In this document: piece by piece, positions 8,578 through 43,564 of the stretch
Numbering within the stretch: the first letter of the stretch is position 1
Layout of the letters: each line of letters begins with the position of its first letter
DNA from: Eubacterium sp.
GTDB taxonomy: Bacteria > Bacillota > Clostridia > Lachnospirales > Lachnospiraceae
Reading direction: 5' to 3'
DNA length: 57,975 nt
Assembly (NCBI GenBank): GCA_024698585.1
Contig: JAILRB010000045.1
Span: 1 to 57,975, forward strand
Made by a program: the position numbers and the translations under genes
The notes under the pieces: generated by a model
Databases searched by the model: none
What the model saw: only the letters and a program-made list of their open reading frames with translations
Told to the model about the DNA's origin: nothing

Positions 8578-9960
8578 ATGTTATTAGAAAAATATACTGG
8601 GATGAGTGAAGATGCGTTAACACTTCAGATTAATAAATATGCTGATCGTTGTGTCACCAACTCTTCCATTGATCCTGACTTATATGATACTTATGATGTT
8701 AAAAGAGGGTTGCGTGACCGTATTACCGGAAAAGGTGTTTTGACCGGTCTGACAGAAATCGGTGATGTTCATTCTTTTGACATTGTTGATGGGAAATCCG
8801 TTCCTTGTGAAGGAAAGCTTTACTATCGCGGAATTGATATCGAAGATATTGTTCAGGGATTTTTAGAAGAAGATCGTTTTGGTTTTGAAGAAACCACTTA
8901 CCTTCTTTTGTTTGGAGAATTGCCTACGGCAAAACGTTTAGAAAACTTTAATCAGGTGTTAGCACAGTATCGTACCCTTCCAACCAGTTTCGTTCGTGAT
9001 ATTATTATGAAGGCTCCCGGACGTGATATGATGAATCTTTTGGCTCGTTGTGTGCTCTCCCTCTATGCATGGGATGAGAATCCGGATGATACATCCATCT
9101 CCAATGTTTTACGCCAGAGCTTAAGTCTGATTGCCCGTGTTCCATTGATGTCCGTTTACGGCTATCAGGTTCATGAACATTATCACAATGGTGGAAACTT
9201 ACATATTATCAATCCGGACTTAAATTTATCCACAGCGGAAAATATTTTACGTTTATTAAGACCGGATGGTTCTTATACACATCTGGAAGCAAAATTACTG
9301 GACTTAGCATTAGTTCTTCACGCAGAGCACGGCGGTGGTAACAACTCCACCTTCACAAACCACGTTGTTTCTTCTTCAGGAACCGATACTTACTCTGCCA
9401 TTGCAGCTTCCTTAGGTTCCCTGAAGGGACCTAAACACGGTGGTGCCAACATTAAGGTGAAGCAGATGTTTGATCATATGAAAGACACCATTGATAACTG
9501 GGATGATGACGAAGAAATCTCCAGCTATCTTCAGGGACTTGTGGACAAGAAATTATTTGACAAGTCCGGTTTGATTTACGGTATCGGTCATGCCGTTTAC
9601 GCCATTTCCGATCCAAGAGCCAAATTATTGAAAGGCTTAACCGAAAAGCTTGCAAAAGAAAAGGGGCGTATGGACGAATTCCAGCTTTATCAGAATGTGG
9701 AACGTCTGGCTCCTGCCATTATTTCCAAGGGACACCGCAGAAATAAAGTCGTTAGTGCTAATGTAGACTTCTACAGCGGCTTCGTTTATTCCATGTTAGG
9801 ATTACCGGATGCTCTTTACACACCGATGTTTGCTTCTGCTCGTATGGCAGGCTGGAGCGCTCACCGAATTGAAGAGCTCATTAACGCCGGAAAGATTATT
9901 CGTCCGGCATATAAGAATGTTGTTAAGAAACATGATTACATTCCATTGACGGAACGATAA
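8578..9960 (+). CDS. gltA: Citrate synthase
   Basis: Condenses acetyl-CoA with oxaloacetate to citrate, the entry to the oxidative branch that supplies 2-oxoglutarate for glutamate. At 460 residues it matches the longer citrate synthases of Clostridia. The catalytic landmarks are visible: HAEHGGGN (His248/His251), KGPKHGGAN (His287), YGIGHAVY with SDPRA (about 336-347), and ANVDFYSG with the catalytic Asp at 397. It stands alone in a one-gene unit with its own promoter and terminator; no aconitase, isocitrate dehydrogenase or methylcitrate-cycle gene is next to it. A 2-methylcitrate synthase activity cannot be excluded by sequence alone, but nothing in the context supports it. The start is fixed by the ribosome site AAAGGAG. 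Confidence 0.97.
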   Translation: MLLEKYTGMSEDALTLQINKYADRCVTNSSIDPDLYDTYDVKRGLRDRITGKGVLTGLTEIGDVHSFDIVDGKSVPCEGKLYYRGIDIEDIVQGFLEEDRFGFEETTYLLLFGELPTAKRLENFNQVLAQYRTLPTSFVRDIIMKAPGRDMMNLLARCVLSLYAWDENPDDTSISNVLRQSLSLIARVPLMSVYGYQVHEHYHNGGNLHIINPDLNLSTAENILRLLRPDGSYTHLEAKLLDLALVLHAEHGGGNNSTFTNHVVSSSGTDTYSAIAASLGSLKGPKHGGANIKVKQMFDHMKDTIDNWDDDEEISSYLQGLVDKKLFDKSGLIYGIGHAVYAISDPRAKLLKGLTEKLAKEKGRMDEFQLYQNVERLAPAIISKGHRRNKVVSANVDFYSGFVYSMLGLPDALYTPMFASARMAGWSAHRIEELINAGKIIRPAYKNVVKKHDYIPLTER

Positions 9961-9966
9961 AATTTT

Positions 9967-10004
9967 AGAGGACCTGATTTTGAACAATCAGATCCTCTTT
10001 TTAC
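9967..10004 (+). terminator. Terminator after citrate synthase
   Basis: A 13-base inverted repeat with one mismatch (AGAGGACCTGATT and AATCAGATCCTCT) closes a six-base loop and is followed by a T run. It lies between convergent genes, so it may also serve the minus-strand gene that ends at 10016. Confidence 0.85.
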
Positions 10005-10015
10005 TTGTTCTTCTT

Positions 10016-11410
10016 TTATGAATTAATGGCTGGAATATGGATGTCAAAATCTTTACCATCTATCTTACACCCAAACTGATATGTTGGCTGGTAAAAGCCC
10101 TTAGAATCAAGCACATATTTTATACAGCAATCCTTCACTGTTATTTTCTGAATATGATTCTTGTAATATTGAAACTTTCCTGAGCACAACAAATCATATG
10201 CCTGTTGTTCGCTCAGAACCGGATACTGTTTATATAATTCTCCTTTTTTTATGGAATATCGAATATCTGAACATTTACCATCCTTTTGAAAAGTACAATT
10301 TACACATCCGTCAACTATGGAATTTCCTTCCTTTTGCATATCAACAGTAAATTGATATTGATTATTTTCTAATTCTTCAAAAGATGCATTCTCTGAAATT
10401 TCAAATCCATAGCTTTCTATTGCTTTTCTTGCACTTTCTTCATCGACCTCCACTTTTTCATCGAAGTCTTCATCTCCAAAACTACAGAAGTCTATTTCTC
10501 CGGTATAATATACCCATAAGCTCATCCCATCTTTGGAATAATAAATCGCATTTTCATCATAATAGTCATTTCTGGAGAAATCCAATTCTGTACCATTCTT
10601 TTTGAAAAACTCTTCTGCTACAGTTTCCGTTTCCTTTTTTGACAACGTTTTTATCTGATACACATCCATCTTGGTTTCTTTTGTACTAAATTGAATTTCT
10701 GAATTTATCTGAACGTGCTTCATATTTTGTTTCATCAGCCATGTTTCCGGGTTGTTCCCTAATTCTTTTCTTTGATAAACAATGAAAAGAATCGAAAATG
10801 CCATAACAGTAATAATCAATGGAATCTGCAATGCTGCAACAGCAATCCATTTTCTTTCCCATTTTCTTTTGGCAATGCACGATATGATGACATCCATCAG
10901 GACATAGCACCCATAACCAATCATTGCCCCCATGGTATTATTCATAATATCATCCGGTTCAAACATTCCCCGGTGAAACAATAATTGAATCAGTTCTATG
11001 AAAACCGTAAAGCCAAATGCAGCTAAATATGTTTTCCAAAAACGCCTCATTTTCTTTATTCCCATTGGAAGTAAAAAACCAAACGGAACAAACATCAAAA
11101 TATTTAGTATAATATTTCTCCAGGAGATGATTGAAAAATTATACCACGCATCCCGATAAGAATAAAAAAGAGGCATAAGTCTGCGATTTTCCCAGAATCC
11201 TCCACGATCTATCAGCGTAACCCCTAATACAACAAACAAATACACCAAATAGATATCCCACCAGATAATTCTTTTTAAATCCAGTTGCTTCTTCCTTCGC
11301 TTCTTTAATATCAGGACACCAATTCCCATAATTAGAAATTGAACAATTACAAAAAAAATTGCTATCCTAAAATAACTCATCCCCATATCGAATAATTCAA
11401 AGTCTCGCAT
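10016..11410 (-). CDS. VanZ-family membrane protein with large C-terminal extracytoplasmic domain
   Basis: The N-terminal half (about 1-215) is a VanZ-like membrane domain with about six hydrophobic segments, including the family-typical stretches NILMFVPFGFLLP and FIELIQLL followed by DDIMNNTMGAMIG. After a last membrane segment near 200-215 comes about 245 residues of charged, beta-rich sequence with two repeated-looking halves (each with a Tyr-rich YYxK/DG pattern), predicted to sit outside the membrane and resembling PepSY/YycI-type folds; that resemblance is a weak impression. VanZ gives low-level teicoplanin resistance in enterococcal Tn1546, but most homologs have no known role. It is the last gene of a four-gene minus operon, nine bases after the DUF4250 gene. 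The tail makes it unlike ordinary VanZ proteins of about 160-190 residues. Confidence 0.8.
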   Translation of the reverse strand: MRDFELFDMGMSYFRIAIFFVIVQFLIMGIGVLILKKRRKKQLDLKRIIWWDIYLVYLFVVLGVTLIDRGGFWENRRLMPLFYSYRDAWYNFSIISWRNIILNILMFVPFGFLLPMGIKKMRRFWKTYLAAFGFTVFIELIQLLFHRGMFEPDDIMNNTMGAMIGYGCYVLMDVIISCIAKRKWERKWIAVAALQIPLIITVMAFSILFIVYQRKELGNNPETWLMKQNMKHVQINSEIQFSTKETKMDVYQIKTLSKKETETVAEEFFKKNGTELDFSRNDYYDENAIYYSKDGMSLWVYYTGEIDFCSFGDEDFDEKVEVDEESARKAIESYGFEISENASFEELENNQYQFTVDMQKEGNSIVDGCVNCTFQKDGKCSDIRYSIKKGELYKQYPVLSEQQAYDLLCSGKFQYYKNHIQKITVKDCCIKYVLDSKGFYQPTYQFGCKIDGKDFDIHIPAINS

Positions 11411-11419
11411 ATTTTCCCT

Positions 11420-11599
11420 CTATACGAACTGGTTCGTCTCTTCATTATATTCGTATTGAATCTTGCGCAGTTTTTCCACCAGTGCTTCTTTCTCTACATC
11501 TTTTGCTCTGCAAAATTCATCTAAATTCGAATAGTAATCTCTTAAGTTTGTGTTGACCACACTTAAAAGCATTACCGGATCTTTTGGTAAACTGTTCAT
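11420..11599 (-). CDS. DUF4250 family small protein
   Basis: A 59-residue cytoplasmic protein beginning MNSLPKDPVMLLSVVNTNLR. The LPKDPxMLLSxVNxxLRD head and the KIQYEYNEETNQFV tail are the conserved features of DUF4250, a family of unknown function common in Clostridia. The ATG at 11599 is preferred over an in-frame ATG 15 bases further up because it overlaps the stop of the upstream gene (TAATG) and has the purine-rich GGGAGAAAG just before it, a sign of translational coupling. It may be a small DNA- or protein-binding helical protein, but no function can be assigned. Confidence 0.85.
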   Translation of the reverse strand: MNSLPKDPVMLLSVVNTNLRDYYSNLDEFCRAKDVEKEALVEKLRKIQYEYNEETNQFV

Positions 11600-11997
11600 T
11601 ACTTTCTCCCCCAAATCAAATATCCAATAATAATTCCGCCAATGATTCCGATTATCATGTGAACGATTCTCATAATGTCGGGACCTTTTTGTTCCTTCGG
11701 CTTTCCGTATTGCTTTTCCTGTTTACGGTTAAAACGAACCACGTCAACCATCAGCAGGATGCTACCGACGAAAGAAATTACAAAAGTTATGAGTGCAGTT
11801 ACCATGGCAATCGCTTGAGCGTTTCCACGTAAAAGAAACAATAAGAGCACAGATAACACTGAAATAATTGCTGCAGGAGCTGTAATCATCATTACAACCT
11901 TCCCGAATCCCTGAGGGACATATTGCTCTCCACGATTATTCATCATCGTCTGCTTCTTCTGTTTTCCGTAATAATATTTATTCGTCTGTTTTGCCAT
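11599..11997 (-). CDS. Small membrane protein of unknown function
   Basis: 132 residues: a basic N-terminus of about 30 residues rich in Lys, Gln and Tyr, then hydrophobic segments at about 33-57, 63-86 and 109-128, with a charged loop (about 87-105, Lys/Gln/Glu-rich) between the last two. I do not recognise the family. It is sandwiched between a COG2426-type membrane protein 13 bases upstream and the DUF4250 gene, whose start codon overlaps its stop. The arrangement suggests co-expression and coupled translation. Topology is consistent with three membrane passes; no catalytic motif is visible. Confidence 0.75.
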   Translation of the reverse strand: MAKQTNKYYYGKQKKQTMMNNRGEQYVPQGFGKVVMMITAPAAIISVLSVLLLFLLRGNAQAIAMVTALITFVISFVGSILLMVDVVRFNRKQEKQYGKPKEQKGPDIMRIVHMIIGIIGGIIIGYLIWGRK

Positions 11998-12010
11998 AAC
12001 AAGCTCCTTA

Positions 12011-12490
12011 CTAAATTCCGAAGATTTTCAAAATTCCTGTCACACCCGCGCCCATAATAATTCCGGCGAGAACTACTCCTGCCATACAGGCTGCAACACT
12101 TTTCTTAAAATCCATGTCAAGAATGCTGGCTGCCAGCGTTCCGGTCCAGGCTCCTGTTCCTGGAAGTGGAATTCCTACAAATAGGAACAATGCAAAATAT
12201 AATCCTCTTCCTGCTTTCTCCATTAACTTCTGTCCACCCTTTTCTCCTTTTGACAGACAAAAACCAAAAAACTTTCCGATGACTTTCTTATCCTGTCCCC
12301 ACACGAGAACCTTTCTTGCAAAGAAGAAAATGAATGGTACCGGAATCATATTTCCAACGATTGCTACCAGATATGTTTGAAAAACCGGCAGGTGATAAGT
12401 GTTTAATCCAACGGGAGCTGCTCCCCTGATTTCCACGATTGGAACCATAGATATAAAAAATACAATAAGATACTTTACTAATTTCGACAT
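12011..12490 (-). CDS. Small multidrug-export family protein (COG2426 type)
   Basis: 159 residues with several hydrophobic segments. The signatures of the family are VPIVEIRGAAPVG near the start, with the conserved Glu and Arg in the membrane, and the glycine-rich GIPLPGTGAWTGTLAA in the second half. The Pfam name mentions multidrug export, but transport by these proteins is poorly documented, so this is a family label rather than a proven role. The start at 12490 is chosen because GAAGGAG lies seven bases upstream; an in-frame start 42 bases earlier would place the promoter -10 region very close to the coding sequence. First gene of the four-gene operon ending in the VanZ-like protein. Confidence 0.85.
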   Translation of the reverse strand: MSKLVKYLIVFFISMVPIVEIRGAAPVGLNTYHLPVFQTYLVAIVGNMIPVPFIFFFARKVLVWGQDKKVIGKFFGFCLSKGEKGGQKLMEKAGRGLYFALFLFVGIPLPGTGAWTGTLAASILDMDFKKSVAACMAGVVLAGIIMGAGVTGILKIFGI

Positions 12491-16505: not shown

Positions 16506-17048
16506 TTATTCTGTATGTGCTCCCTGCTGTGATTTGTTTCTCATCATCTGATGTGTCGAAATCAAAAGGATCATAAACAGTAAAGCCAGAAGAAATCCAA
16601 CGGAATCAATCAATACATCCCGTACCTGTGGACTTCTTCCATCCACAAATCCCTGATGAACCTCATCAGTGATTGCATAAAGAATTCCGAATCCCTCGGA
16701 ATATAATATGCGTTTTATTTGCTGACCAATCACTGAAAAAGTGAGCAGGAATCCACCCACGAAAAGTCCCAAAATCGCATATTCTCCCAAATGTCCTGTC
16801 TTACGAACAACAAAACTGACTTTATTAAATAATTCTTCCTGTCGTTCGGTGCTAAGATTGGAATAATCCGGTTCTATGAAGGTTACAATCCGCTGTGTGA
16901 TTTTATCACTGAAAGACGAGGACTCTGTTGCCGTGGCAGCAGAAAATCCAAAAATTGTAATCATCCACCAAAGACTGAGCCCCAGTAATATAACTCGGGC
17001 TCCATAGATTTTTCCTTTCTCAGAGAACCATTTATTTTTCAACTGCAT
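16506..17048 (-). CDS. VanZ-family membrane protein
   Basis: 180 residues with an N-terminal hydrophobic anchor followed by an extracytoplasmic loop (about 40-85) and then two to three further membrane segments. The VanZ-family signatures are FVVRKTGHLGEYAILG and YAITDEVHQGFVDGRSPQVRDVLIDSVG. Function unknown in this context. Its coding region overlaps the end of glmM by about 17 bases; I prefer the ATG at 17048 to the upstream one at 17072 because AAGGAAAAAGGAC sits immediately before it. Second VanZ-type gene in the window, but this one has the plain family architecture. Confidence 0.88.
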   Translation of the reverse strand: MQLKNKWFSEKGKIYGARVILLGLSLWWMITIFGFSAATATESSSFSDKITQRIVTFIEPDYSNLSTERQEELFNKVSFVVRKTGHLGEYAILGLFVGGFLLTFSVIGQQIKRILYSEGFGILYAITDEVHQGFVDGRSPQVRDVLIDSVGFLLALLFMILLISTHQMMRNKSQQGAHTE

Positions 17049-18381
17049 GTCCTTTTTCCTTGATGACAGCAATCACTTCATCCACATAATTTTCTGCTTC
17101 CTGTTCCGTCTTTGCTTCTACCATCACTCGGATTACCGGCTCAGTTCCACTTTCACGAACTAGGATTCTACCGTCATTTCCAAGTTTTTCTGATACAGCA
17201 TCTACAGCCTTCTGAACATCCACATCTGCTCTGGCTTCCGGCTTGCTTGCCACGCGTACATTCTTCAGCACCTGTGGATAAATTGTTACCGGGTTAATTA
17301 ACTCTGACATTTTCTTCTTAGAAGAGAGCATCACTTCCATCAACTTAATGGAGGTTAAGATACCATCACCGGTCGTCGCATACTTACTAAAAATAATATG
17401 TCCGGATTCTTCTCCTCCGAGACGATAGTTATTATTTCTCATACATTCATAAACATATTTATCACCAACATCTGTCTTTTCGTAGTCAATTCCTACTGCA
17501 TCAAATGCCTTGTAAAGACCAATGTTTGACATAATGGTTGTAACAACGGTGTTATTATCCAGTTCTCCGTTTTCCTTCATATAGGTTCCGCAAACATAGA
17601 GAATTAAATCTCCGTTAACGATATGTCCCTGATCATCTACACAGAAACAACGGTCAGCATCACCATCATAAGCAAAACCAATGTCTAAATGATTTCCAAT
17701 GACAAACTTCTGCAGTTCTTCAATATGTGTGGAACCACATCCCATATTGATGTTTGTTCCGTTTGGCTCTGCATGAATTACATGTGTTTCTGCTCCTAAA
17801 GCATCAAATACACTCTTTGCAATAGCTGATGCACTACCGTTAGAACAATCCAATCCCACCTTGATATTTCTAAAGGAATGTTTTGCCAATGTCATTAAAT
17901 ATCCCATATAACGATTTCTTCCTGCGAAGTAATCCACGGTTCTACCAATCTTTTCTCCCACTGCATATGGAATACTTTCGAAATCTGCATCAATATATTC
18001 TTCAATCTGATCAATGATTTCCTGTTCCATTTTTTCGCCTTTACCATTTAAAAGCTTAATTCCATTATCATAGAACGGATTATGGCTGGCAGAAATCATA
18101 ATCCCACAATCAAAATCTTCTGTACTGACAACGTAAGATACACTTGGTGTCGTAGTTACGTGTAATAAATATACGTCCGCTCCCGTAGAAGTCAGACCTG
18201 CGGACAAAGCATCTTCAAACATATAACTGCTTCGTCTTGTATCCTTTCCGATTGCAACGGAACACTTATGATAACGTCCGTAATACCATCCAAGGAAACG
18301 TCCCACCTTAAACGCATGCATTGCGGTCAGGTTCACGTTTGCCTCTCCTCTAAATCCATCTGTTCCAAAATACTTTCCCAT
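17032..18381 (-). CDS. glmM: Phosphoglucosamine mutase
   Basis: Interconverts glucosamine-6-phosphate and glucosamine-1-phosphate on the way to UDP-GlcNAc for peptidoglycan. 449 residues, full length. Seen: N-terminal GKYFGTDGFRGEAN, the catalytic phosphoserine loop MISASHNPFYDNG, the metal site DGDADRCFCVDD, the sugar-binding GGEESGHIIF, and the phosphate-binding RESGTEPVIRVMVEA near the C-terminus. First gene of a three-gene unit with a vanZ-type gene and hisC; placing glmM with a cell-envelope membrane protein fits a role in wall assembly. A GGAGGAG ribosome site precedes the ATG. Confidence 0.97.
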   Translation of the reverse strand: MGKYFGTDGFRGEANVNLTAMHAFKVGRFLGWYYGRYHKCSVAIGKDTRRSSYMFEDALSAGLTSTGADVYLLHVTTTPSVSYVVSTEDFDCGIMISASHNPFYDNGIKLLNGKGEKMEQEIIDQIEEYIDADFESIPYAVGEKIGRTVDYFAGRNRYMGYLMTLAKHSFRNIKVGLDCSNGSASAIAKSVFDALGAETHVIHAEPNGTNINMGCGSTHIEELQKFVIGNHLDIGFAYDGDADRCFCVDDQGHIVNGDLILYVCGTYMKENGELDNNTVVTTIMSNIGLYKAFDAVGIDYEKTDVGDKYVYECMRNNNYRLGGEESGHIIFSKYATTGDGILTSIKLMEVMLSSKKKMSELINPVTIYPQVLKNVRVASKPEARADVDVQKAVDAVSEKLGNDGRILVRESGTEPVIRVMVEAKTEQEAENYVDEVIAVIKEKGHAVEK

Positions 18382-18501: not shown

Positions 18502-18771
18502 TTAGCTTTCAAAGGTCACAACGATATTTTCACATTCGTGTTCCAAATCCTTTAACACATCCTTAAGTCTTTCAACATAAGAATTCATTCTTTCATCCTC
18601 TTTCTCAGAGTTTTTTACAACAATATGCATCTCATCATTTCTTGAAGACATCACATCATAAAATCCATCCAGATTTTTTCCATAATATTTCGGAAGTTCA
18701 AATAAATCCGAAAGCATTCCATGCAATTCTTCCAAATCTTCGATTCCGGTTAAATCTATCACATAATCCAT
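18502..18771 (-). CDS. Barstar-family ribonuclease inhibitor
   Basis: 89-residue cytoplasmic protein starting MDYVIDLTGIEDLEELHGML. The barstar fold signature is visible: short first strand, helix, then FELPKYYGKNLDGFYDVM, matching the FxxPxYYGxNLDALWD segment of barstar whose acidic residues plug the ribonuclease active site. The start at 18771 follows AAAAGGGG; the in-frame extension upstream overlaps the preceding gene's end region. It begins 14 bases after the barnase-like gene, the usual toxin-then-inhibitor order. Its job would be to neutralise ribonuclease that enters or stays in the cytoplasm. Identity is strong; partnership with the neighbour is inference from order. Confidence 0.93.
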   Translation of the reverse strand: MDYVIDLTGIEDLEELHGMLSDLFELPKYYGKNLDGFYDVMSSRNDEMHIVVKNSEKEDERMNSYVERLKDVLKDLEHECENIVVTFES

Positions 18772-18784
18772 ACAGTACCCCTTT

Positions 18785-19345
18785 TTAATAAAGCTGTGTA
18801 AAAGTTTCATAATGATCTGATGTATAATAAATCAGCCCATCGGAGGAATAAATAATTCTCTTTGCTCCTCTGCTTTTCGCCCCTAAGGTGTCGATATCAC
18901 ATTCATAATAGGTACGACCTTTGGCTTTTGGAAGTTTCTTTTCATAATTTCCAAAATAATCCCCGCCGATACATTTTCCCGGCGTATAGTTTTTTAAGGA
19001 ACCTCCGTCCCAGCCCAATGCTTTTGCCTCTTTTTTCGTGATGAAGTTTTTCGGCAATGTTCCATACTGATGAATGTAAGCTGCCACGTCCTCTTTGGAG
19101 CTGTATGTGCCGTTACGGTCAATCTTCTTTTGTCTCGTGGACTTTTTTGAAGCTTTCGTTGTCGCTTCATTGACCGCTTCCGTGGTTTCGTCATGCTCTA
19201 CAGCAACGGTAACAAAATTATTTCCCGGTTGATTGTCCTGCTGCGTATCGCCTTCTCCAACACATCCGGAAAAGACCATAGCAGCCAGAAGCAAAACCAA
19301 CGCAACAACGCTCCATCTTCCTTTTGAGAATAATTTTTGTATCAT
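18785..19345 (-). CDS. Barnase-type ribonuclease lipoprotein
   Basis: 186 residues. An N-terminal signal ends in a lipobox (AAMVFSGC, Cys28), so the enzyme should be lipid-anchored on the outer face of the membrane. A Thr/Lys-rich linker (about 45-75) leads to a domain closely resembling Bacillus barnase: YIHQYGTLPKNFITKKEAKA, PGKCIGGDYFGNYEKKLP, RTYYECDID, KRIIYSSDGLIYYTSDHYE. The catalytic triad is present: Glu148, Arg163 and His178 correspond to barnase Glu73, Arg87 and His102, so it should be an active guanyl-preferring RNase. The start at 19345 follows GGAAAGGCGG. Barnase proper is freely secreted; membrane anchoring is the odd feature. It follows an ABC exporter gene by 17 bases and precedes barstar. 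Confidence 0.92.
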   Translation of the reverse strand: MIQKLFSKGRWSVVALVLLLAAMVFSGCVGEGDTQQDNQPGNNFVTVAVEHDETTEAVNEATTKASKKSTRQKKIDRNGTYSSKEDVAAYIHQYGTLPKNFITKKEAKALGWDGGSLKNYTPGKCIGGDYFGNYEKKLPKAKGRTYYECDIDTLGAKSRGAKRIIYSSDGLIYYTSDHYETFTQLY

Positions 19346-19362
19346 ATCATCCGCCTTTCCTT

Positions 19363-21066
19363 TTATCGGACTGTGCAATGAAGTTTCTTATTTTCAATCA
19401 CAAATTCCCGGTTACAAACCTGTAACGCTGCATTCTTATGTGTAATGATAATACATGTTTTCTTCTGTAATCTCTGAATATTTTCCAGAACCCGTTCTTC
19501 TGTTTTTGCATCCAAAGCCGAGGTAGCTTCATCCAATAAGATAATTGGCGCCCTACTGAGGATTGCTCTGGCAATGGCAAGTCGCTGGGCCTGACCTTCA
19601 GAAATCCCCAGTCCCTTTTCTCCAATGGTAGTGTCCAATCCATCCGGCAGTTTTTTCACAAAATCTGCAATATCACTTAATTGTAATGCATCGTTGATTT
19701 CCTCATCCGTTGCATCCGGATTTACCATAAGAATATTTTCCCGCAAGGTTCCGCTGAAAAGATAATTTCCTTGCGGAACATATGAAAACAGTCCTCTGGT
19801 ATCTGTTCCTGCTTCCTCATAACTTCCATCTTCATAGTATAGTCGGATGTTTCCTGCTTTCGGATTAAAGACCCCTAAAAGCATCTTCATTAAGGTACTC
19901 TTTCCAATTCCGGAAATTCCCCGGATTGCCACAAAATCGCCCTTCTTTAAAGAAGCATTTCCTTCCTCTAAGACGCTCTCTCTTCCATAGTTAAATTGAA
20001 TCTTTTCAAATCGTATTTCCTTGAGTCTGGCATAGGTTTCTTCCACATTGATTTTTTCCTGAAGATACAATTCCTTTTCAATGTTTTCAATTTCAATAAT
20101 TCGTTCTGCAGAAGCAACAATGGCATAATACTGCGGAAGAACTCTTGTCACATTTACAAAAGGCATCTGTAACTGGGAAACCAGCTGTAATACCGCAGTC
20201 AATGTTCCATAAGACATGGTCTTCCAACAAACATGTAATGCACACCAAACCAGAGCGAACAGATAACCGGCATTGAATACGAAAGAAAAACCTGCATTGG
20301 CTAAAATGCTAATATTTCTTCGCTTCATTTTTACTCGATAATTAATCTGCTGCAATTCATCGCCTTTTTCAGAAAAACGTTCTTCCACCCCAAACGTCTT
20401 TACGACTAAAAGACTTTCAATGGCTTCCTGATAGAAGGAACGAACCTTACCATCGGTGGACTGTACTTCCTTATGCAAATTTTTCAATCGCTTTCTGAGT
20501 GTCAGGGTTACAGTGGATACTAAAAGGCCTCCTACCAGAAATACCAATGTAAATTTCCAGTCAAAGGTAACCAATACGACAAAAGCCCCGACAAACTGAG
20601 TCACATAGTAAATCAAATCCGGAATGATGTTCGTCATTCCGTCTGAGATAATTTTAATGTCACTGGTAATGCGATTCATCAACTCACCGCTGTGATATTC
20701 ATTGATTTTTTCATATTTTTTTCCGAGGATTTCGGAAAACAAATCCGAACGCATTTCCATTTCCAGTCCAGCCTGCGTCCGAATGGCGAGACTCTGATTG
20801 TATACACGTAAAAACAATCGTCCGATGATAATGCAAAAAATCACAATTCCATAGACAATAATCATATGAATATATTGATCTCTTGTCTCAATACTTCCTG
20901 CATCAGCAGCCTTTTGTGCGGAATCAATGGCATACTTACTCATGACCGCTAACGAAGTCGTAGCAAGTGCCAGAAAAACATTGAATAAACTCAGTGCAAT
21001 GATTTTCAGACGATATCCTTGGCTGTTATTCACAATCCATCGTAATCCTTTTGATTCTTTCATCAT
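19363..21066 (-). CDS. ABC transporter, fused permease and ATPase
   Basis: 567 residues with the half-exporter plan: six-helix membrane domain (about 10-320) and C-terminal nucleotide-binding domain. ATPase motifs: Walker A RGISGIGKSTLMKMLLG, Q-loop YVPQGNYLFSG, signature LGISEGQAQRLAIARAIL (LSGGQ replaced by ISEGQ), Walker B IILLDEATSALD and a switch His in IIITHK. The Ser-Glu-Gly-Gln signature is common in bacteriocin and peptide exporters. It has no N-terminal C39 peptidase. Directly downstream of genes for a signal-peptidase-like protein, a PqqD protein and an HPr-kinase-like protein, so export of a processed peptide is the likely job; the substrate is unknown. Confidence 0.95.
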   Translation of the reverse strand: MMKESKGLRWIVNNSQGYRLKIIALSLFNVFLALATTSLAVMSKYAIDSAQKAADAGSIETRDQYIHMIIVYGIVIFCIIIGRLFLRVYNQSLAIRTQAGLEMEMRSDLFSEILGKKYEKINEYHSGELMNRITSDIKIISDGMTNIIPDLIYYVTQFVGAFVVLVTFDWKFTLVFLVGGLLVSTVTLTLRKRLKNLHKEVQSTDGKVRSFYQEAIESLLVVKTFGVEERFSEKGDELQQINYRVKMKRRNISILANAGFSFVFNAGYLFALVWCALHVCWKTMSYGTLTAVLQLVSQLQMPFVNVTRVLPQYYAIVASAERIIEIENIEKELYLQEKINVEETYARLKEIRFEKIQFNYGRESVLEEGNASLKKGDFVAIRGISGIGKSTLMKMLLGVFNPKAGNIRLYYEDGSYEEAGTDTRGLFSYVPQGNYLFSGTLRENILMVNPDATDEEINDALQLSDIADFVKKLPDGLDTTIGEKGLGISEGQAQRLAIARAILSRAPIILLDEATSALDAKTEERVLENIQRLQKKTCIIITHKNAALQVCNREFVIENKKLHCTVR

Positions 21067-21531
21067 TTATCCTAAAATTTTACGCTTAATCCTGCCTAAA
21101 ATTCTTCTTCCCTTTTTCTTTATTTTTCGTAGGCCTACCGTAGCAACCCAGACCTTCACATAAATTCGATACCCCAGCCCCTGACAAGAATGTTTTTTCC
21201 CTTTCCGGGTAAAAGATACAACAACACCAATGATTTGAGACTCCTCAATTCCATATTCCTTCACGAACTGCCCGTCGCCCCGCATCACATACTTGCCCTG
21301 AGACAAATCAACGACCCGATGTAAAACATAACTTCCGTCCTTTCTTTGATACAATGGCAAATCATATTTTTTCAGTGGAAACTTTGCCCTGGCAATTGTA
21401 ACGGTATCCATCCCGTCCCGAAGCATGGGAAGCATACTTTTCCCTTTAGGCGTAAAAGTCGCTTTCCCTCCGGCCTCCAACTGGTTCTTTATCAAAGGTA
21501 TCATTTCTTCCATGGAAACTACTTTATTCAA
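21067..21531 (-). CDS. S24/S26 signal-peptidase-like protein
   Basis: About 154 residues. The S26 signature is visible: the nucleophile Ser in PKGKSMLPML, the DGMDTVTIA strand, VLHRVVD with the His that replaces Lys in the SipW/archaeal/ER-type enzymes, and VMRGDGQ. The C-terminus is strongly basic (KIKKKGRRILGRIKRKILG) and may be a membrane-bound amphipathic tail; there is no classical N-terminal anchor. For the start, a TTG at 21531 is spaced well from AAGGAGGG and overlaps the upstream stop (TTGAATAA); the ATG at 21513 is the alternative. Ends one base before the ABC gene. In this context it would trim a leader from a peptide substrate. Confidence 0.83.
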   Translation of the reverse strand: MNKVVSMEEMIPLIKNQLEAGGKATFTPKGKSMLPMLRDGMDTVTIARAKFPLKKYDLPLYQRKDGSYVLHRVVDLSQGKYVMRGDGQFVKEYGIEESQIIGVVVSFTRKGKKHSCQGLGYRIYVKVWVATVGLRKIKKKGRRILGRIKRKILG

Positions 21532-21793
21532 ATAATCCCTCCTTCTCGACCTTCTGAATAAATAGTTTAACATCTTCTTTTGCGGTTTCCTCTGAAACCT
21601 CAAATTCCTGCATCAACGCCTGAATGAGTTCTTCTTCCGTAATTCCCGCCTGCAGTTTTTCAAAAAGAAATGCACCGGTTCCGTTTAAACTCACCATACC
21701 ATTAAAATCTATATTTTCTTTTCCAATGGGAACCACAACATAATTCCCAGCAATATTCCTTAACAAAAATCCATCTTTTATTTTCATATTCAT
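21524..21793 (-). CDS. PqqD-family peptide chaperone
   Basis: 89 residues with the PqqD fold pattern: LLRNIAGNYVVVPIG, then the conserved NGTGAFLFEKLQAGITEEEL and a winged-helix C-terminus of alternating Glu/Val. PqqD proteins (RiPP recognition elements) bind leader peptides and hand them to modifying enzymes. Here it lies three bases after the HPr-kinase-like gene and overlaps the start of the signal-peptidase-like gene. No radical SAM enzyme, cyclase or other classical modifying enzyme is next to it, so the partner is probably the kinase-like protein. The exact peptide partner is not visible. Confidence 0.9.
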   Translation of the reverse strand: MNMKIKDGFLLRNIAGNYVVVPIGKENIDFNGMVSLNGTGAFLFEKLQAGITEEELIQALMQEFEVSEETAKEDVKLFIQKVEKEGLFE

Positions 21794-21796
21794 TTC

Positions 21797-22546
21797 CTAT
21801 ATTCTTCTAATTTTTTCGTAAGCTGTCACCACAGCCTCATCACTCATGTCACAGCCCATTCGATATAACGGGGTACTGGTCAGAATTTTCTCTAAATTAT
21901 CAAGAATGCGATCCATCTGTTCCACTCCCCCGGACTGATGAATGGTCTGCTTCATATAAAGCGGAATTGCTTCTGCCACATCAATTTCCCGGATATGATT
22001 TTCCTTAGAACGCTCCAGAAAAACAATTGCTCCCAGTTTTCCTCTGACATTCTCATTCAAATCCGTCTTTCCACTCCAAGGTGTTCCATAGACATACCAT
22101 GCATCATCCGTAAAGCGTAAAACCGGTTTATCATCATTAACAATTACTGCACGGTTTCCGAAATGCTCTTTCCATAGCGACGTATGGGTGGATTTTCCGG
22201 TTCCACTGTCTGCGGAGAACAAATATACATAATCATCCACCATGACAGCCGAAGAATGAAGCATGCATCCCTGCTTTTTAATAATCAGCCAATGAAACAA
22301 TTCCCCGGTATATATGTATTCAATGCTCTGCATCGGAAGGTTTGCCGCGGACTGTTCCCTCATTTCTTCGTAAAAAGAATGTTCCAGAGAGATTTCAATC
22401 TCTGCCTCCTCTTCTTTCCAGGAAGATTTTGCCAGATATTTTTTCGCCTGATTCCGGGTTCGGTTATAATATAATGTCATCACAACTTTCAAACCGGCAA
22501 TTTCATAGCGTTCCTTTTGCGGAATCCCTTCTGTCATCTGTTCCAT
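21797..22546 (-). CDS. HPr-kinase-like ATP-binding protein
   Basis: 249 residues. The N-terminal part (about 1-85) is unlike known domains to my eye; the C-terminal part shows the HprK-type nucleotide site: SSAVMVDDYVYLFSADSGTG continuing into GKSTHTSLW (P-loop), VNDDKPVLRF and YGTPWSGKTDLNEN. Such proteins occur in peptide-maturation operons, including kinases that phosphorylate lasso peptides, and also in capsule regions. The regulatory HPr kinase of sugar control has a longer N-terminal domain and is not intended here. The start at 22546 is preferred to upstream in-frame starts because GAAAGAGG lies about eight bases before it. First gene of the six-gene run ending in barstar. Confidence 0.8.
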   Translation of the reverse strand: MEQMTEGIPQKERYEIAGLKVVMTLYYNRTRNQAKKYLAKSSWKEEEAEIEISLEHSFYEEMREQSAANLPMQSIEYIYTGELFHWLIIKKQGCMLHSSAVMVDDYVYLFSADSGTGKSTHTSLWKEHFGNRAVIVNDDKPVLRFTDDAWYVYGTPWSGKTDLNENVRGKLGAIVFLERSKENHIREIDVAEAIPLYMKQTIHQSGGVEQMDRILDNLEKILTSTPLYRMGCDMSDEAVVTAYEKIRRI

Positions 22547-22618: not shown

Positions 22619-23341
22619 TTATTTATAATATCCCTTGTTCTGTCCGTATCCATAACCGTAATTCGAACCATATCCTCTCTGATAATATCCGCCATAATAG
22701 CTTCCCTTATCTTCAGGATCCACTTTATTCAATACACATCCCAGAATCTTACAGCCTGATTTCTTCATCTGTTCAATCTGTTTTTGTGCATACTTGTAAC
22801 TGATATTCGACTGAGATATTAAGAAGATTACTCCATCCGTTTTCGGTGCAACAATAGCCGGGTCAATAACCTGTCCAATCGGCGGGGTATCAATAATTAC
22901 ATAATCATAGTTTTTTCTGGCAATTTCCACCAGTTCATCAAACTTCTTTCCGTTCAGTAATTCTGCCGGGTTCGGTGGTACCGGACCGGAAATAATCATA
23001 TCCATATTTTCAATATTAGTAGTGTACTTCACTTCGTCCAATTCTGCCACACCGGACAAAAACTGTGTCAGACCCTTGATGGCCTTATTGATTTTATATC
23101 GACCAATCAAAACAGACTTACGTAAATCGGCATCAATAAACAATACCTTTTTCCCGGAATCCGCAATGGAAATCGCAAGGTTAAAAGCTACCATGGATTT
23201 TCCTTCATTCGGAATACAACTGGTCAAGGAAATTACCTTTACGTCATCTCCACAGAACTGTACATTCGTACGGAGCGTTTTATATGCTTCTCTTGTCTTA
23301 AAATCTAAGTCAGAAACTTTTTCAAGATTAATATTTAACAT
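22619..23341 (-). CDS. cpsD: Capsule tyrosine autokinase (BY-kinase, CpsD/CapB type)
   Basis: 240 residues. Walker A SCIPNEGKSMVAFN, Walker A' VLFIDADLRKS and Walker B DYVIIDTPPIG define a bacterial tyrosine kinase of the separate (Firmicutes) type, which needs the membrane adaptor encoded just upstream. The C-terminus is a dense tyrosine cluster with Gly-Tyr repeats (from about residue 217: YYGGYY, NYGYGYGQ, GYYK), the expected autophosphorylation tail. Phosphorylation cycles control capsule or exopolysaccharide chain length. The ATG at 23341 follows GGAAAGGAG; a GTG three codons earlier is less likely. Third gene in the order phosphatase-adaptor-kinase. No glycosyltransferases or polymerase are next to it in this window. 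Confidence 0.95.
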   Translation of the reverse strand: MLNINLEKVSDLDFKTREAYKTLRTNVQFCGDDVKVISLTSCIPNEGKSMVAFNLAISIADSGKKVLFIDADLRKSVLIGRYKINKAIKGLTQFLSGVAELDEVKYTTNIENMDMIISGPVPPNPAELLNGKKFDELVEIARKNYDYVIIDTPPIGQVIDPAIVAPKTDGVIFLISQSNISYKYAQKQIEQMKKSGCKILGCVLNKVDPEDKGSYYGGYYQRGYGSNYGYGYGQNKGYYK

Positions 23342-23358
23342 CACGAACACTCCTTTCC

Positions 23359-24168
23359 TTACTTACTCGGCTCTTCATCTTTGCCGTCCGGTTCTTTTGT
23401 TTTGCCACGCGCCTGCTCCGGTCGATGTCCGTAACCATATCCGTAACCATATCCATAACCACTCTTAGAGTCTGCACTCTTTAATGGAATTGCTGCAAGA
23501 ACACTTAATCCCAGATATTTCTCAATATCATCCGGTGACTTAATCGTATCATCTAAAATGAACATGATAACTACAACGATTACAGAAAGGCCAAATCCCA
23601 ATACGAATCCAAGCATGGTATTCTTTTCTACATTCGGGCTGGATGGACTCTGAGGAAGTTTCGCTTCATCAATGGCGTTCACCGCCTCGATTCCTTCCAT
23701 TACGTTCTTTGTCTTTTCATTGGCCACATCTCGTACCTTGTTCGCAATTTTCTGCGCAAGTTTCGGATCTGTACTGGTCACTGAAATTTCCATCACACGG
23801 GTATCTTCAATTAATTCAACAGAAATCATATCTGCCAGAGCATCTGTGCTCTGTTCCAAATCCAGTTCATCAATTACTTCCTGTAAAACCGGATCACTGG
23901 TCAGTAATACCTGGTAGTCATTCGCCAGATATGTTGCAAAGGCTAAATCGTTTGTGGTAAGTCCTTCTGAGTTTGGATCCTGATGGGTCAAAATGTAAAC
24001 CTTCGTTTTTGCCACATATTGTTCATCCACAAAATATTCCGTATATGCAAATACAATACCACCTACAAGAATTCCAACCAGAATAATAATCATCATTCGA
24101 TTCAGTATGGCAGTAAACAACCCTCGAAGGTCAATTTCTATCTCATTTCTGCTATTCTCTGCGTCCAT
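23359..24168 (-). CDS. cpsC: Chain-length adaptor of the BY-kinase (Wzz/CpsC type)
   Basis: 269 residues: membrane segment at about 20-45, a large external coiled domain (about 50-175) and a second membrane segment at about 185-207 preceded by LPQSPSSPN, the conserved Pro-rich motif. The cytoplasmic C-terminus normally activates the kinase. Here that tail carries SGYGYGYGYGYGHR followed by a Lys/Glu-rich end, so Tyr residues are present in the adaptor as well as in the kinase. The DNA coding for it is a short tandem repeat. It ends 17 bases before cpsD and starts about 20 bases after cpsB. Confidence 0.95.
   Translation of the reverse strand: MDAENSRNEIEIDLRGLFTAILNRMMIIILVGILVGGIVFAYTEYFVDEQYVAKTKVYILTHQDPNSEGLTTNDLAFATYLANDYQVLLTSDPVLQEVIDELDLEQSTDALADMISVELIEDTRVMEISVTSTDPKLAQKIANKVRDVANEKTKNVMEGIEAVNAIDEAKLPQSPSSPNVEKNTMLGFVLGFGLSVIVVVIMFILDDTIKSPDDIEKYLGLSVLAAIPLKSADSKSGYGYGYGYGYGHRPEQARGKTKEPDGKDEEPSK
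23429..23462. repeat. 12-base tandem repeat encoding the Gly-Tyr tail of the adaptor
   Basis: Two exact copies of a 12-base unit (CCGTAACCATAT on the plus strand) and a partial third copy. Each unit codes for Gly-Tyr-Gly-Tyr on the minus strand. Because the unit is a multiple of three, copy changes would lengthen or shorten the Tyr tail without breaking the frame. Confidence 0.85.
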
Positions 24169-24188: not shown

Positions 24189-24911
24189 CTATTTATCTTC
24201 AATGATTCTCCGAGGATTTTCCTCCAGTAACCACTGAATATACCCCGGACTGCATTTTTTTTGAAGTTGTGTCAGACACTCTTTCCAAAAAACGCCTCGA
24301 TGCCCGGTGCTATGTGCATCCGTTCCAATGAAATGAAGCATATCCGCTTCAATCAATTTCGCGACAAATTTCTTTTCTCTTCCGAAAACACTGGATGCAT
24401 TTACCTGAAGTAATGCTCCCATTTCCATAATATGTCGTAATGCTTCCCTATTTAATACGCCGATTTTCTTTCGAAGGCAACTGTATCGCTCACAATGAGC
24501 AATTACCGGAATATAACCGCCGTTCTGCAAATCTCGCAGATATTTTTCCATCTCCGGAAATCGAACCGTTGGATAAAACTCTACCAAAACATACCGACTT
24601 CCTGCAAGACTCCGAACACGCCCTTCTTCTAACATGGAAACCATATCATTACATGCCATAATTTCGTTTCCCAAAAATAATGACAAATCGGAATATTTCC
24701 TTGCCACGGCTTCCTTTATTTTTTCAAAATGCAATTCTATTGTTTCTTTTTTGGGCATACACTCCCCAATATGAAAATGCGGAGTGAATATGATGTTACG
24801 AACTCCCTGATCGTATTCTCTTTCAATAATCTCTAAAGAGGTTTCCAAAGAGTCTGCGCCATCATCCACACCATACAAAATATGGTTATGCAAATCAGTT
24901 ATTCCGGTCAT
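24189..24911 (-). CDS. cpsB: PHP-type tyrosine phosphatase of the capsule module (CpsB)
   Basis: 240 residues. Metal-dependent PHP phosphatase that dephosphorylates the BY-kinase. Metal ligands are visible in DLHNHILYGVDDGA (start), TPHFH (about 44-48), the Glu of GNEIMACND, VIAHCERY (about 136-143) and IGTDAHSTGHRG (about 197-208). The order cpsB-cpsC-cpsD is the usual one. A strong promoter precedes it and AGGAGGGT is its ribosome site, so this is the first gene of the unit. Confidence 0.95.
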   Translation of the reverse strand: MTGITDLHNHILYGVDDGADSLETSLEIIEREYDQGVRNIIFTPHFHIGECMPKKETIELHFEKIKEAVARKYSDLSLFLGNEIMACNDMVSMLEEGRVRSLAGSRYVLVEFYPTVRFPEMEKYLRDLQNGGYIPVIAHCERYSCLRKKIGVLNREALRHIMEMGALLQVNASSVFGREKKFVAKLIEADMLHFIGTDAHSTGHRGVFWKECLTQLQKKCSPGYIQWLLEENPRRIIEDK

Positions 24912-39889: not shown

Positions 39890-42800
39890 TTATTTGTATG
39901 ATTTTTTCGAATAATTTGGCTGAACTTTTTTCAGGATGTCATTGTAAAGGAAGTTATGTCTTACCTCCGTTAACATCTGACAACTCTGATAAAGTCGATC
40001 TGCAACACCGTAAATCGTATAATTTGCGACATCGGAATAAACATATGCGCCGCTCTCTAATTTTGCATAGGCACGTATTTTCCAGTTCGCAGAAAATTCT
40101 TTGACTGTCTTCGGGCCGAATTTCATGGTCATGGAATGACTGGTTGCAAAATCAGACTGCGCATAGACCTTTTTGCAAAGACCCGATGCATTACATTCAT
40201 AGCTGATTACTCTTTCATTGGAGCTTCCAACATATAAATCCGAATCTGCTGCGTAAGGTGCAAGACCATAAATCAAACCGGCTGATACCACTTCCTGTCC
40301 GTTAATATGATTATCTACCGAGAAGATTGTACGCATACCATCCACTGTGTTACTGATCTGATATCCATTAATCTCAATTCCTCCGGAAATCTTTCTTGTA
40401 TCTGACGCTTTCACAAACTGGAAGTAATCCACGTTTGCTACGTAGTAAGCTCCATTCTTTGTCACATACTTCATATAGATTTTATGAACTCCCGCAGAAA
40501 TCGTAGAATCCAATAATCCGGTATAATCGGAGTATGTCTGCCAATTGGAGCCATTGTTCTTTAATGGAATGGTTCCAACCTTATGATTCAGCGAATCCAC
40601 ATAGATTTCCACAGTTCCATTGGCCGTTCCCTTTGGACTGGAATATCTTAACTGGAACGCTCCGGCACTTTCTGTAAACTGTACTCTGTCATACTGCATC
40701 GTCACGCCATTAGAGATTCCTCCAATATTATGTCCACCACTGGCATTGGAATTATTATCAATTATACCACCCTGATGTTCATCAAAGGCTTCTGCTTCAA
40801 TTTTTTGGTAAGCATTGTAAGTCACAGTAGTCGGCTCTTCTGTGGTCGGTTCCTGTGTGGTCGGTTCCTGTGTGGTCGGTTCTGCTGTAGTCACTTCCTT
40901 CGTGGTTGTTTCCGGTTCTGTATCAACCAATGCAAAAGAAGTTACATCCAGACGATAATTATCCGGTGCATTTCCTAAGTCAATGAAAATCTGCGCCGTA
41001 GTTGTTGTTGTGAAATCCAATGTAATGTTATTGGTTCCACTGCTTAAGCTTACCAGTTTTTCAGTCTGAGATTTATCATCCTTGAATCGAATGTCGTTTG
41101 CTGCTGCACTGGAATTTACAGTAAGCTTACACTGATACTTCTTTCCTGATACAACAGACAGCTCCTTTGTTTTCATCTGAACTGCCCAAGCCGAGTTCTT
41201 TGGTCCATTGTTAATATAAATGCTGAAGTTATTGTATGCATTTCCATTACGGTATCCACCGGTTGGATTATTGCCCCAACCATTTGCAAAATAAACAGAC
41301 CAGAAATTCATGTCAGTCCATTCTGTTCCGGCAGCCGTAAAACCTGATGGAATTGTTGTCGGTGCTTCTGTCGGAGCCTGAGTTGTGGTTACAGCACCAC
41401 GAACACTTACGGTCGCTGTCACACCACTACTTTCTTTTCCATTGTAGACCGAAGTGATCTTTACAGTGTGGTTTCCTTCTGTCACGCCGGTAATCGTCTG
41501 TACCGCACAGGCCACATTACTCAATTTCTTCTGGTTATCCACATAAATATTATAGAGCTGTCCTTTTGATTCCATGGACTCATTTCTGCCCCATACTACT
41601 GTAATTGTATTGTTTGCATCAGAACTGACTACCTGACCAAATACCTCTTCCGGATTATTATTCTGTGGCTGGGTCGTTGGTTCCACGTTCTGACTGGCAA
41701 TATTTAATTCAGGGCGTTCGCTTCCCTGCTTCCATACATTGTTTACACTATTTAATAAATTGGTGACATTTCCATTAGTAAAATCGGATGCACTCTTAGA
41801 CTTAGCATCATTTTCACGATTTCCTGTTCCTGATTTATAGAAACAGTTTGTCACGGTTCCGCCCGGCTTATATCCCACAACACCACCGTTCCAGTATCCA
41901 TCTCCACTGGAAGTAGAACCGGTATTATAACAGTTCTTTACCGTTCCGGATGTGAGCCATCCTACAATACCGCCGGCTACCTGACTGGTGGCATTAATAG
42001 TTCCGATATTATAGCAGTCACGAATCATTCCGCTGCCTTCCATTAATCCGGCAATTCCGCCCACTGCATTAGATGATGTAACCGTACCTGAGAAAGAACA
42101 CTGTTCAATGGTTCCTTTACAGCATCCGGCAATACCACCTACATAATAACTGCTTCCCTTGATGGTAGCATTTTCCAGTTTCAGATTCTTTACCACGGCT
42201 CCTTCTGCTACCTCACGAAACATTCCCACATAACCGTCACTGACATTAATGTTCAGTCCGCTGATTTTATGTCCATTTCCGTTAAAGGTTCCCTGGAATG
42301 TACCACGACTGGTAATGGTTCCGCTGACGGTAATATCATTCGCCAATGTCACTGCCTTATTTTTCGTGGATGCACCATTGGCTACTTTCTGTAAATAGTT
42401 TTTTAACTGGTCTCCATTGTAAATGGTTGTATTTTCTGCGATTTTACTATCAACATTCAGATTAATTCTGCGACGGATTTCTCTCTTACATACTTCACAG
42501 AATTCCTGATTCAGGTAACGCATCTCACATCTCTGATGTGGTCTGTACCAATCCGGCTGTTCTTCATGGGAATACAATCCGACTCCATTCACGCCAATAA
42601 GGTCTGACCACTTACATTTTGAAGGGTCACTTTCATGCGTTCTGTTTGGTGCCTCAGAACGATTGTCTGTTGTGGTTTCCCAATATTCATCTGCTAATCC
42701 ACCACCGGTATGTCCGAATTCATGGAATGCAATATCTCTTGCTTCAGAATGAGCAGAGATACAGCAAAGGCTACCACCGGATCCACCGTACTTTTCACTG

Positions 42801-43459: not shown

Positions 43460-43564
43460 TTTTTTATCCTTCCCTTTCATTTTTTCCGTTCTCCACACAA
43501 CCGTTTTCAAGTATAGCACAGAATTTTTCAAAATTTTTTAATGCTGAAATTTTATACCCTAAAA

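Follow-up and report, generated by a model that had tools for sequence, protein, structure and literature searches.

The window, a stretch of 57,975 nucleotides from a Eubacterium species of the family Lachnospiraceae (GenBank assembly GCA_024698585.1, contig JAILRB010000045.1), carries a cassette for an HprK-like kinase, a PqqD-type recognition protein, an S26/signal-peptidase-like protein and an ABC exporter that is likely a variant of the cassettes for linear polyphosphorylated peptides (LPPs), which are ribosomally synthesized and post-translationally modified peptides (RiPPs), with its precursors likely encoded in trans. An initial annotation had read the set as a machine for peptide maturation and export with no precursor, cyclase or radical SAM enzyme nearby, and the present analysis supports that description and gives the machine a name. 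The six genes then proposed to run head to tail, from the kinase to a barstar gene, are all present on the minus strand, with gaps of 0–17 bp and one 8-bp overlap, and their boundaries and Pfam domains are as listed here for the cassette and further below for its two neighbours.

21797..22546, minus strand: HprK-like peptide kinase (LppK-like), 249 aa, assigned by P-loop, NDDKP residues and predicted fold
21524..21793, minus strand: PqqD-type discrete RiPP recognition element (RRE, LppB-like), 89 aa (PF05402, E 3.8e-17)
21067..21531, minus strand: S26/signal-peptidase-like putative leader peptidase (LppS-like), with a probable TTG start at 21531, assigned by Ser/His/Asp residues and weak profile matches
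19363..21066, minus strand: MsbA-like ABC exporter half-transporter (LppD-like), 567 aa (PF00664, PF00005)

LPPs were described by Popov et al. in 2026 (PMC13381572). The main text of that paper, which deals with Bacilli, defines a set consisting of an HprK-like kinase (LppK), a discrete RRE (LppB), a signal-peptidase-like protein (LppS), an MsbA-like exporter (LppD), an NTP transferase (LppN) and a precursor with a YxxP leader (LppA), and places the clusters often in capsule loci. According to the same text, in Paenibacillus the YxxP leader is bound by LppB, Ser3 of the core is polyphosphorylated by LppK, and the leader is cut by LppS with the help of LppB; the products are regarded as linear counterparts to the phosphorylated lasso peptides, and their biological role is stated to be unknown. 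The window cassette resembles this set in its HprK-like kinase, discrete PqqD-type RRE, signal-peptidase-like peptidase and MsbA-like exporter, as well as in the YxxP leaders of the candidate precursors, the lack of a cyclase, the setting in a capsule locus and, in part of the genus, an NTP transferase. It differs in belonging to Clostridia and in having its likely precursors outside the cluster (0 of 20 genus loci hold one) and no NTP transferase, an enzyme that is part of the paper's conserved set; because the latter and an in-cluster precursor are absent from the window, the cassette is filed as a variant rather than as a plain member.

At E 0.01, neither the HprK-like nor the S26-like protein matches a Pfam family, and Pfam and NCBIfam together return nothing for the kinase beyond one sub-threshold match to ScmC. 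The kinase is accordingly assigned by its AlphaFold2 model (mean pLDDT 91.6), which suggests an HprK identity in that its best Foldseek matches are PEP carboxykinases and HPr kinase/phosphatases; its P-loop and NDDKP residues are invariant or nearly so among 21 aligned relatives. In the S26-like protein, S56, H95 and D110 (numbered on the long open reading frame) are invariant in 24 aligned relatives, the Ser–His spacing of 39 is the same as in LppS, and the family profile weakly matches signal peptidase I (best E 7.9e-4). For the PqqD protein, the sole PDB match at E 0.01 is 9x8z, the structure of LppB with the LppA leader (E 1.1e-4), and the phmmer alignment to this entry places an Asn, an Asp and a Phe on LppB residues N33, D70 and F74, whose positions were taken from the paper and shifted by the tag offset of the 9x8z chain. 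Across 18 RREs the aligned Asn and Phe are invariant, the Asp not being found in all; paeninodin-type RREs, by the main text of PMC13381572, have Gly where LppB has N33. The exporter has TIGR02203/02204 as its best NCBIfam models, yet below their cut-off.

The candidate precursors are dispersed. None of the 20 genus loci that contain the cassette (the window and L067–L085) holds a YxxP peptide, which removes a local precursor from consideration. Short open reading frames with a Y-x-x-P leader are found upstream of the kinase in its named Clostridia relatives, where the exoprotein and peptide genes are clustered with the cassette (for example L183, L186, L196, L202 and L220). A profile of 35 such peptides (A2; chosen by eye and with a regular expression from longer lists, others being left out) has matches in all 23 genus genomes, with a best E per genome of 9.9e-6 or lower. 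The search for short leader-bearing frames at homologous loci, which the initial annotation had suggested, thus finds YxxP peptides inside the clusters of named Clostridia and in trans throughout the genus. The genome of the window (G000) has four A2 places, two on contig C59 and one each on C54 and C13, none of them on the contig of the window. A Ser stands at position Y+18 or Y+19 in 47 of 81 peptides, the phosphorylated Ser of LppA being at Y+18, and 10 of the 35 YxxP peptides scanned matched no NCBIfam family over its cut-off. One further peptide (L187, 5756-6115) has a core with a long Ser-Asn-Glu repeat. The dispersed peptides are likely processed by the window-type cassette, because the only other kinase module of this genome with an intact-looking set, located on contig C3, has no matching ABC gene. 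Taken on its sequences, the cassette is thus probably of LPP type and probably trans-acting.

The YxxP peptides are encoded next to exoproteins. Among 81 distinct peptides (identical sequences counted once), 73 follow a same-strand gene of at least 100 aa that ends within 350 bp upstream, 40 of these gaps measuring 1–35 bp, and 8 have none within that distance; in 29 cases the upstream gene is cut by the end of the sequence examined. Where it is complete (n = 44), it encodes at least 330 aa with a signal-peptide-like N-terminus in 40 cases, versus 41 of 349 ordinary gene pairs. If multi-pass proteins are excluded, the counts become 39 versus 28 (Fisher P 4e-30), with the reservations that the background set contains some exoproteins and that the sequences are related, so that P values overstate their independence. 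The partner exoproteins reach more than 2,800 aa, and some have carbohydrate-binding or F5/F8-type domains, others no Pfam domain.

Many of these partners end in a related C-terminal domain, captured in a second profile (A3) made from 26 C-termini (that of L267 and 25 of 36 listed), with unlike ones and some near-duplicates left out. An AlphaFold2 model of the domain (pLDDT 84.4) is mostly beta, and a protein search with the domain, restricted by a length filter, returned 3 short fragments. Of the 101 peptide places in the genus, 62 have an A3 domain no more than 600 bp upstream, and of the 119 domain places, 55 are followed by a peptide no more than 600 bp downstream, against an expectation of about 0.1 pair; all listed places were counted, weak matches included, and it weighs against these figures that both profiles, A2 and A3, drew in part on loci later counted. 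In three genomes (L267, L271 and L272), two exoprotein genes lie side by side, each with its own peptide, and the last 207–211 residues of the two proteins are 86–90% identical. BLASTP finds little else in common within these pairs, namely a 61-residue stretch at 34% in L272 and a 25-residue signal region in L271. The paired peptides have the same sequence in L271 and in L272, and a single residue separates them in L267, which belongs to the window's own genome. C-terminus and peptide thus appear to stay together as a mobile unit in exoproteins that otherwise differ.

One run of genes (L154, G220:C47, 207-8027) brings together a predicted secreted protein, a YxxP peptide, PqqD, S26, a LytR-CpsA-Psr protein, CpsC and CpsD, and so connects the peptides with genes for wall polysaccharide; the run also holds genes for a Lys-rich, MBG-like secreted protein and for cytidylyltransferase-like and NTP_transf_5-like proteins.

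A second association concerns the ends of the peptides, some of which recur on predicted membrane-anchored proteins encoded nearby. Same-strand pairs within 8 kb, made of a peptide and a 60–320 aa protein with a hydrophobic N-terminus, were compared over the last 14 residues of each. The tails are identical over at least 4 residues in 11 of 330 pairs (0.4 expected), over at least 5 in 9 and over at least 6 in 7, whereas pairs formed across loci (n = 71,169) give 82, 3 and 0; as a point on the other side, 5 of the 11 matches form one ortholog group and 2 another, and further ones may be related, which leaves fewer independent cases. The tails found on both partners (GFGPLI, WGPLE, GEDNT, IDWF, IDWFDD and VPGGEW) change together. 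One such case, on C54 (L268), belongs to the genome of the window.

Together, these associations can be accommodated in the following scheme. The trans-acting cassette would bind peptides that have a YxxP leader and whose genes lie at other places in its genome; the kinase would phosphorylate a conserved Ser of the peptide, the peptidase would remove the leader, and the ABC exporter would send out the core. Outside the cell, the variable tail of the peptide might dock the partner exoprotein, while the phospho-Ser end might be attached to polysaccharide at the surface, with NTP_transf_5 as the enzyme wherever it is present; the membrane-anchored protein would offer the same tail, so that exoproteins could be held at the cell surface. 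LPPs would then be surface-docking peptides, with a phosphate or sugar-phosphate handle at one end, a locus-specific tail that grips an exoprotein at the other, and the anchored protein as a second dock. Docking is proposed because of the pairing with exoproteins, their common C-terminus and the repetition of the tails on anchored proteins, and it is put forward tentatively, as a possibility that falls short of being probable. In PEP-CTERM/exosortase surface sorting, exported proteins are likewise linked to polysaccharide loci via a C-terminal unit; here, the short tail is encoded by a separate gene.

The main rival on function, which coincides with the favoured scheme up to export, is that the products of the cassette are free phosphopeptides with a signalling or antimicrobial function, the link to exoproteins reflecting shared regulation or transfer as a module. 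The analogy between LPPs and phosphorylated lasso peptides drawn in the main text of PMC13381572 speaks for it, an ABC exporter would be in keeping with peptide release, and the short distance from exoprotein gene to peptide gene could be there for co-expression alone. Of a free antibiotic, however, one would expect neither that exoprotein C-terminus and peptide are kept together while the rest differs, nor that anchored proteins repeat the peptide tail, and this explanation is considered rather unlikely.

Under the docking proposal, the tie between YxxP peptides, secreted proteins and anchored proteins gives LPPs a concrete candidate role, and precursors located outside the cluster would be missed by searches around RRE genes. 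If the proposal is true, gut and rumen Clostridia would keep proteins on their surface by means of a RiPP, and docking would be a new kind of surface display in Clostridia, with a RiPP in place of a sortase or S-layer motif. The machinery itself has been known since 2026. What appears new is the genus-wide trans arrangement, together with the pairing of the peptides with large predicted secreted proteins and the tails that they have in common with anchored proteins; the main text of PMC13381572, which names neither Clostridia nor Lachnospiraceae and speaks of nothing secreted, extracellular or surface-related, is silent on these points, as is the other literature found. That paper was the only one found on polyphosphorylated RiPP peptides, and no paper linking RiPPs with surface proteins was found in a search whose scope left out most subscription journals.

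Further observations weigh against the LPP-type, trans-acting reading and the docking proposal built on it. The second kinase–PqqD–S26 module of the window's genome, on C3, could serve the peptides instead of the cassette. The S26 gene is present in 15 of the 20 genus cassettes and missing from 5; NTP_transf_5 is absent from the window cassette, although the genome does have a copy, on C39, next to a truncated kinase. The His–Asp spacing of the peptidase is 15 versus 25 in LppS, and the leader consensus printed in the main text of PMC13381572 (YxxPxVLxHQxIxFETxxS) is met only in the YxxP and a later Ser. As for the pairing, 39 of the 101 peptide places are without the A3 domain and 64 of the 119 domain places without a peptide, and two of the four peptides of the window's genome (C54 and C13) have no A3 match upstream. 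The C-termini of the partners are not all alike, about ten unlike ones having been left out of A3, and no PDB structure matches the model of the A3 domain at E 0.001 or below. Finally, the two C59 peptides have no tail partner, an exact-pattern search of the window's genome for WTGLY/F endings having returned only the two peptides themselves.

The position of the cassette within a capsule locus raises another alternative, in which it would modify the Tyr/Gly-rich tails of CpsC and CpsD or another capsule protein, while the dispersed peptides would belong to a second module. In the window, the same-strand run extends upstream of the kinase through cpsD, cpsC, cpsB, prfA and prmC, and the genes that frame the cassette are as follows.

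24189..24911, minus strand: CpsB-type phosphatase (PF19567), upstream context
23359..24168, minus strand: CpsC/Wzz-type chain-length protein with a GYGYGY stretch (PF02706), upstream context
22619..23341, minus strand: CpsD/Wze-type tyrosine kinase with a Tyr/Gly-rich tail (TIGR01007), upstream context
17032..18381, minus strand: glmM, downstream border of the conserved locus

A kinase with at least 45% identity is present in 21 of the 23 genus genomes, and kinase, PqqD and ABC genes occur together in all 20 genus loci (one ABC gene being cut by the contig end), mostly between prfA/cpsBCD and glmM. The latter follows the cassette in 19 of the 20, and the remaining locus is cut by its contig end. 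In 7 of the 20, clustering places an NTP_transf_5-type gene between cpsD and the kinase, one of these having been confirmed with Pfam. That cpsBCD is upstream in 16 of 20 loci, none of which has a local peptide, would suit a capsule substrate. In L069, L070 and L077, however, the cassette directly follows prfA without cpsBCD, and the residues that would read the YxxP motif are kept in the PqqD protein, which makes this alternative improbable.

Five genus genomes (L079–L083) have kinase, PqqD and ABC genes but a cassette without S26, and several of them have S26 in other modules. The C3 module (L031, G000:C3:7000-26999, 9380-12102) adjoins a DUF815 AAA ATPase, downstream of glycyl-radical-enzyme-like and activase-like genes, in an order that recurs in many genus genomes. 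On C39 (L151, G000:C39:32000-46341, 9333-11421), a truncated HprK-like frame is followed by PqqD, S26 and NTP_transf_5 genes in what looks like a decayed third module.

A lasso peptide cluster, or a cyclase-less remnant of one, is very improbable. Its appeal lies in the paeninodin- and pseudomycoidin-type clusters, which, in the passages that PMC8498205 and PMC7533575 devote to them, combine an HprK-like kinase, a PqqD-type B1 protein, an NTP transferase and an ABC exporter with [Y/W]xxP leaders, much as seen here. The genus, however, has an S26 peptidase in place of B2 (PF13471), which exceeds its cut-off in 0 of 23 genomes, with one sub-threshold match in G219. The locus has no cyclase, its PqqD protein carries the Asn of LppB and not the Gly of the paeninodin types, and the cassette is kept at one place across the genus, so that a lasso assignment was rejected. 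In the window's genome, Asn_synthase matches lie on C22, C60, C1 and C54, and none on the PqqD contigs C2, C3 and C39.

The remaining two genes of the head-to-tail run most likely form a lineage-specific pair that stands beside the cassette without being related to it.

18785..19345, minus strand: barnase-family ribonuclease with a lipoprotein-type N-terminus (PF00545, E 3.1e-22), neighbour
18502..18771, minus strand: barstar-family inhibitor (PF01337, E 5.5e-16), neighbour

By Pfam, they are an ordinary barnase–barstar pair, with ribonuclease and barstar domains in adjacent genes. The initial annotation had singled out their pairing with the cassette as the most unusual feature of the window and had proposed that they may be a cargo-linked effector with its immunity protein, or else a neighbour. 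The pairing proves incidental: barnase and barstar occupy a variable slot between the ABC gene and glmM in 4 of 20 genus loci, whereas in the other loci that slot has either no gene or different ones, among them a NUDIX-like (L069 and L070), a glucanase-like (L071) and a small inverted gene (five loci). Around kinase relatives in named Clostridia, the pair occurs in 1 of 80 loci, where the kinase is 97% identical to that of the window. PF00545 is found in 73 of 299 family genomes, and among 200 family genomes 45 have a kinase match, 48 barnase and 12 both, versus 10.8 expected. In only one of these 12, the genome of the window, do the two lie on the same contig; the co-occurrence tables were compared by eye, and the contig-linkage point is weakened by the use of draft genomes and by many distant kinase matches. 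The co-occurrence check suggested earlier thus finds pair and cassette occurring independently as far as the examined genomes go, and barnase is not considered part of the cassette because its distribution reveals no recurrent linkage. The barnase gene is on the same strand as the ABC gene, 17 bp away and with no terminator-like site between the two, and in the genus PF00545 is found in 4 of 23 genomes, every time in the ABC–glmM slot; with 16 of 20 cassettes lacking the pair, co-occurrence in the family at the rate of chance and a lipoprotein-like N-terminus that should make the ABC exporter unnecessary, a role as effector and immunity protein of the cassette is extremely unlikely. Promoter-like sites were at chance level (21 found versus 18.8 in shuffles).

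Three other features of the window may be recorded. Tyr/Gly-rich stretches (GYGYGY) end both CpsC and CpsD, which is unusual for CpsC. Positions 39890-43531 encode a predicted secreted protein of 1213 aa that combines parts resembling a metalloprotease (HEFGH) and a carbohydrate-binding protein; the contig yielded no YxxP peptide. Near the end of the window, a 425-aa protein encoded at 55749-57026 was judged by eye to be tyrosine-recombinase-like.

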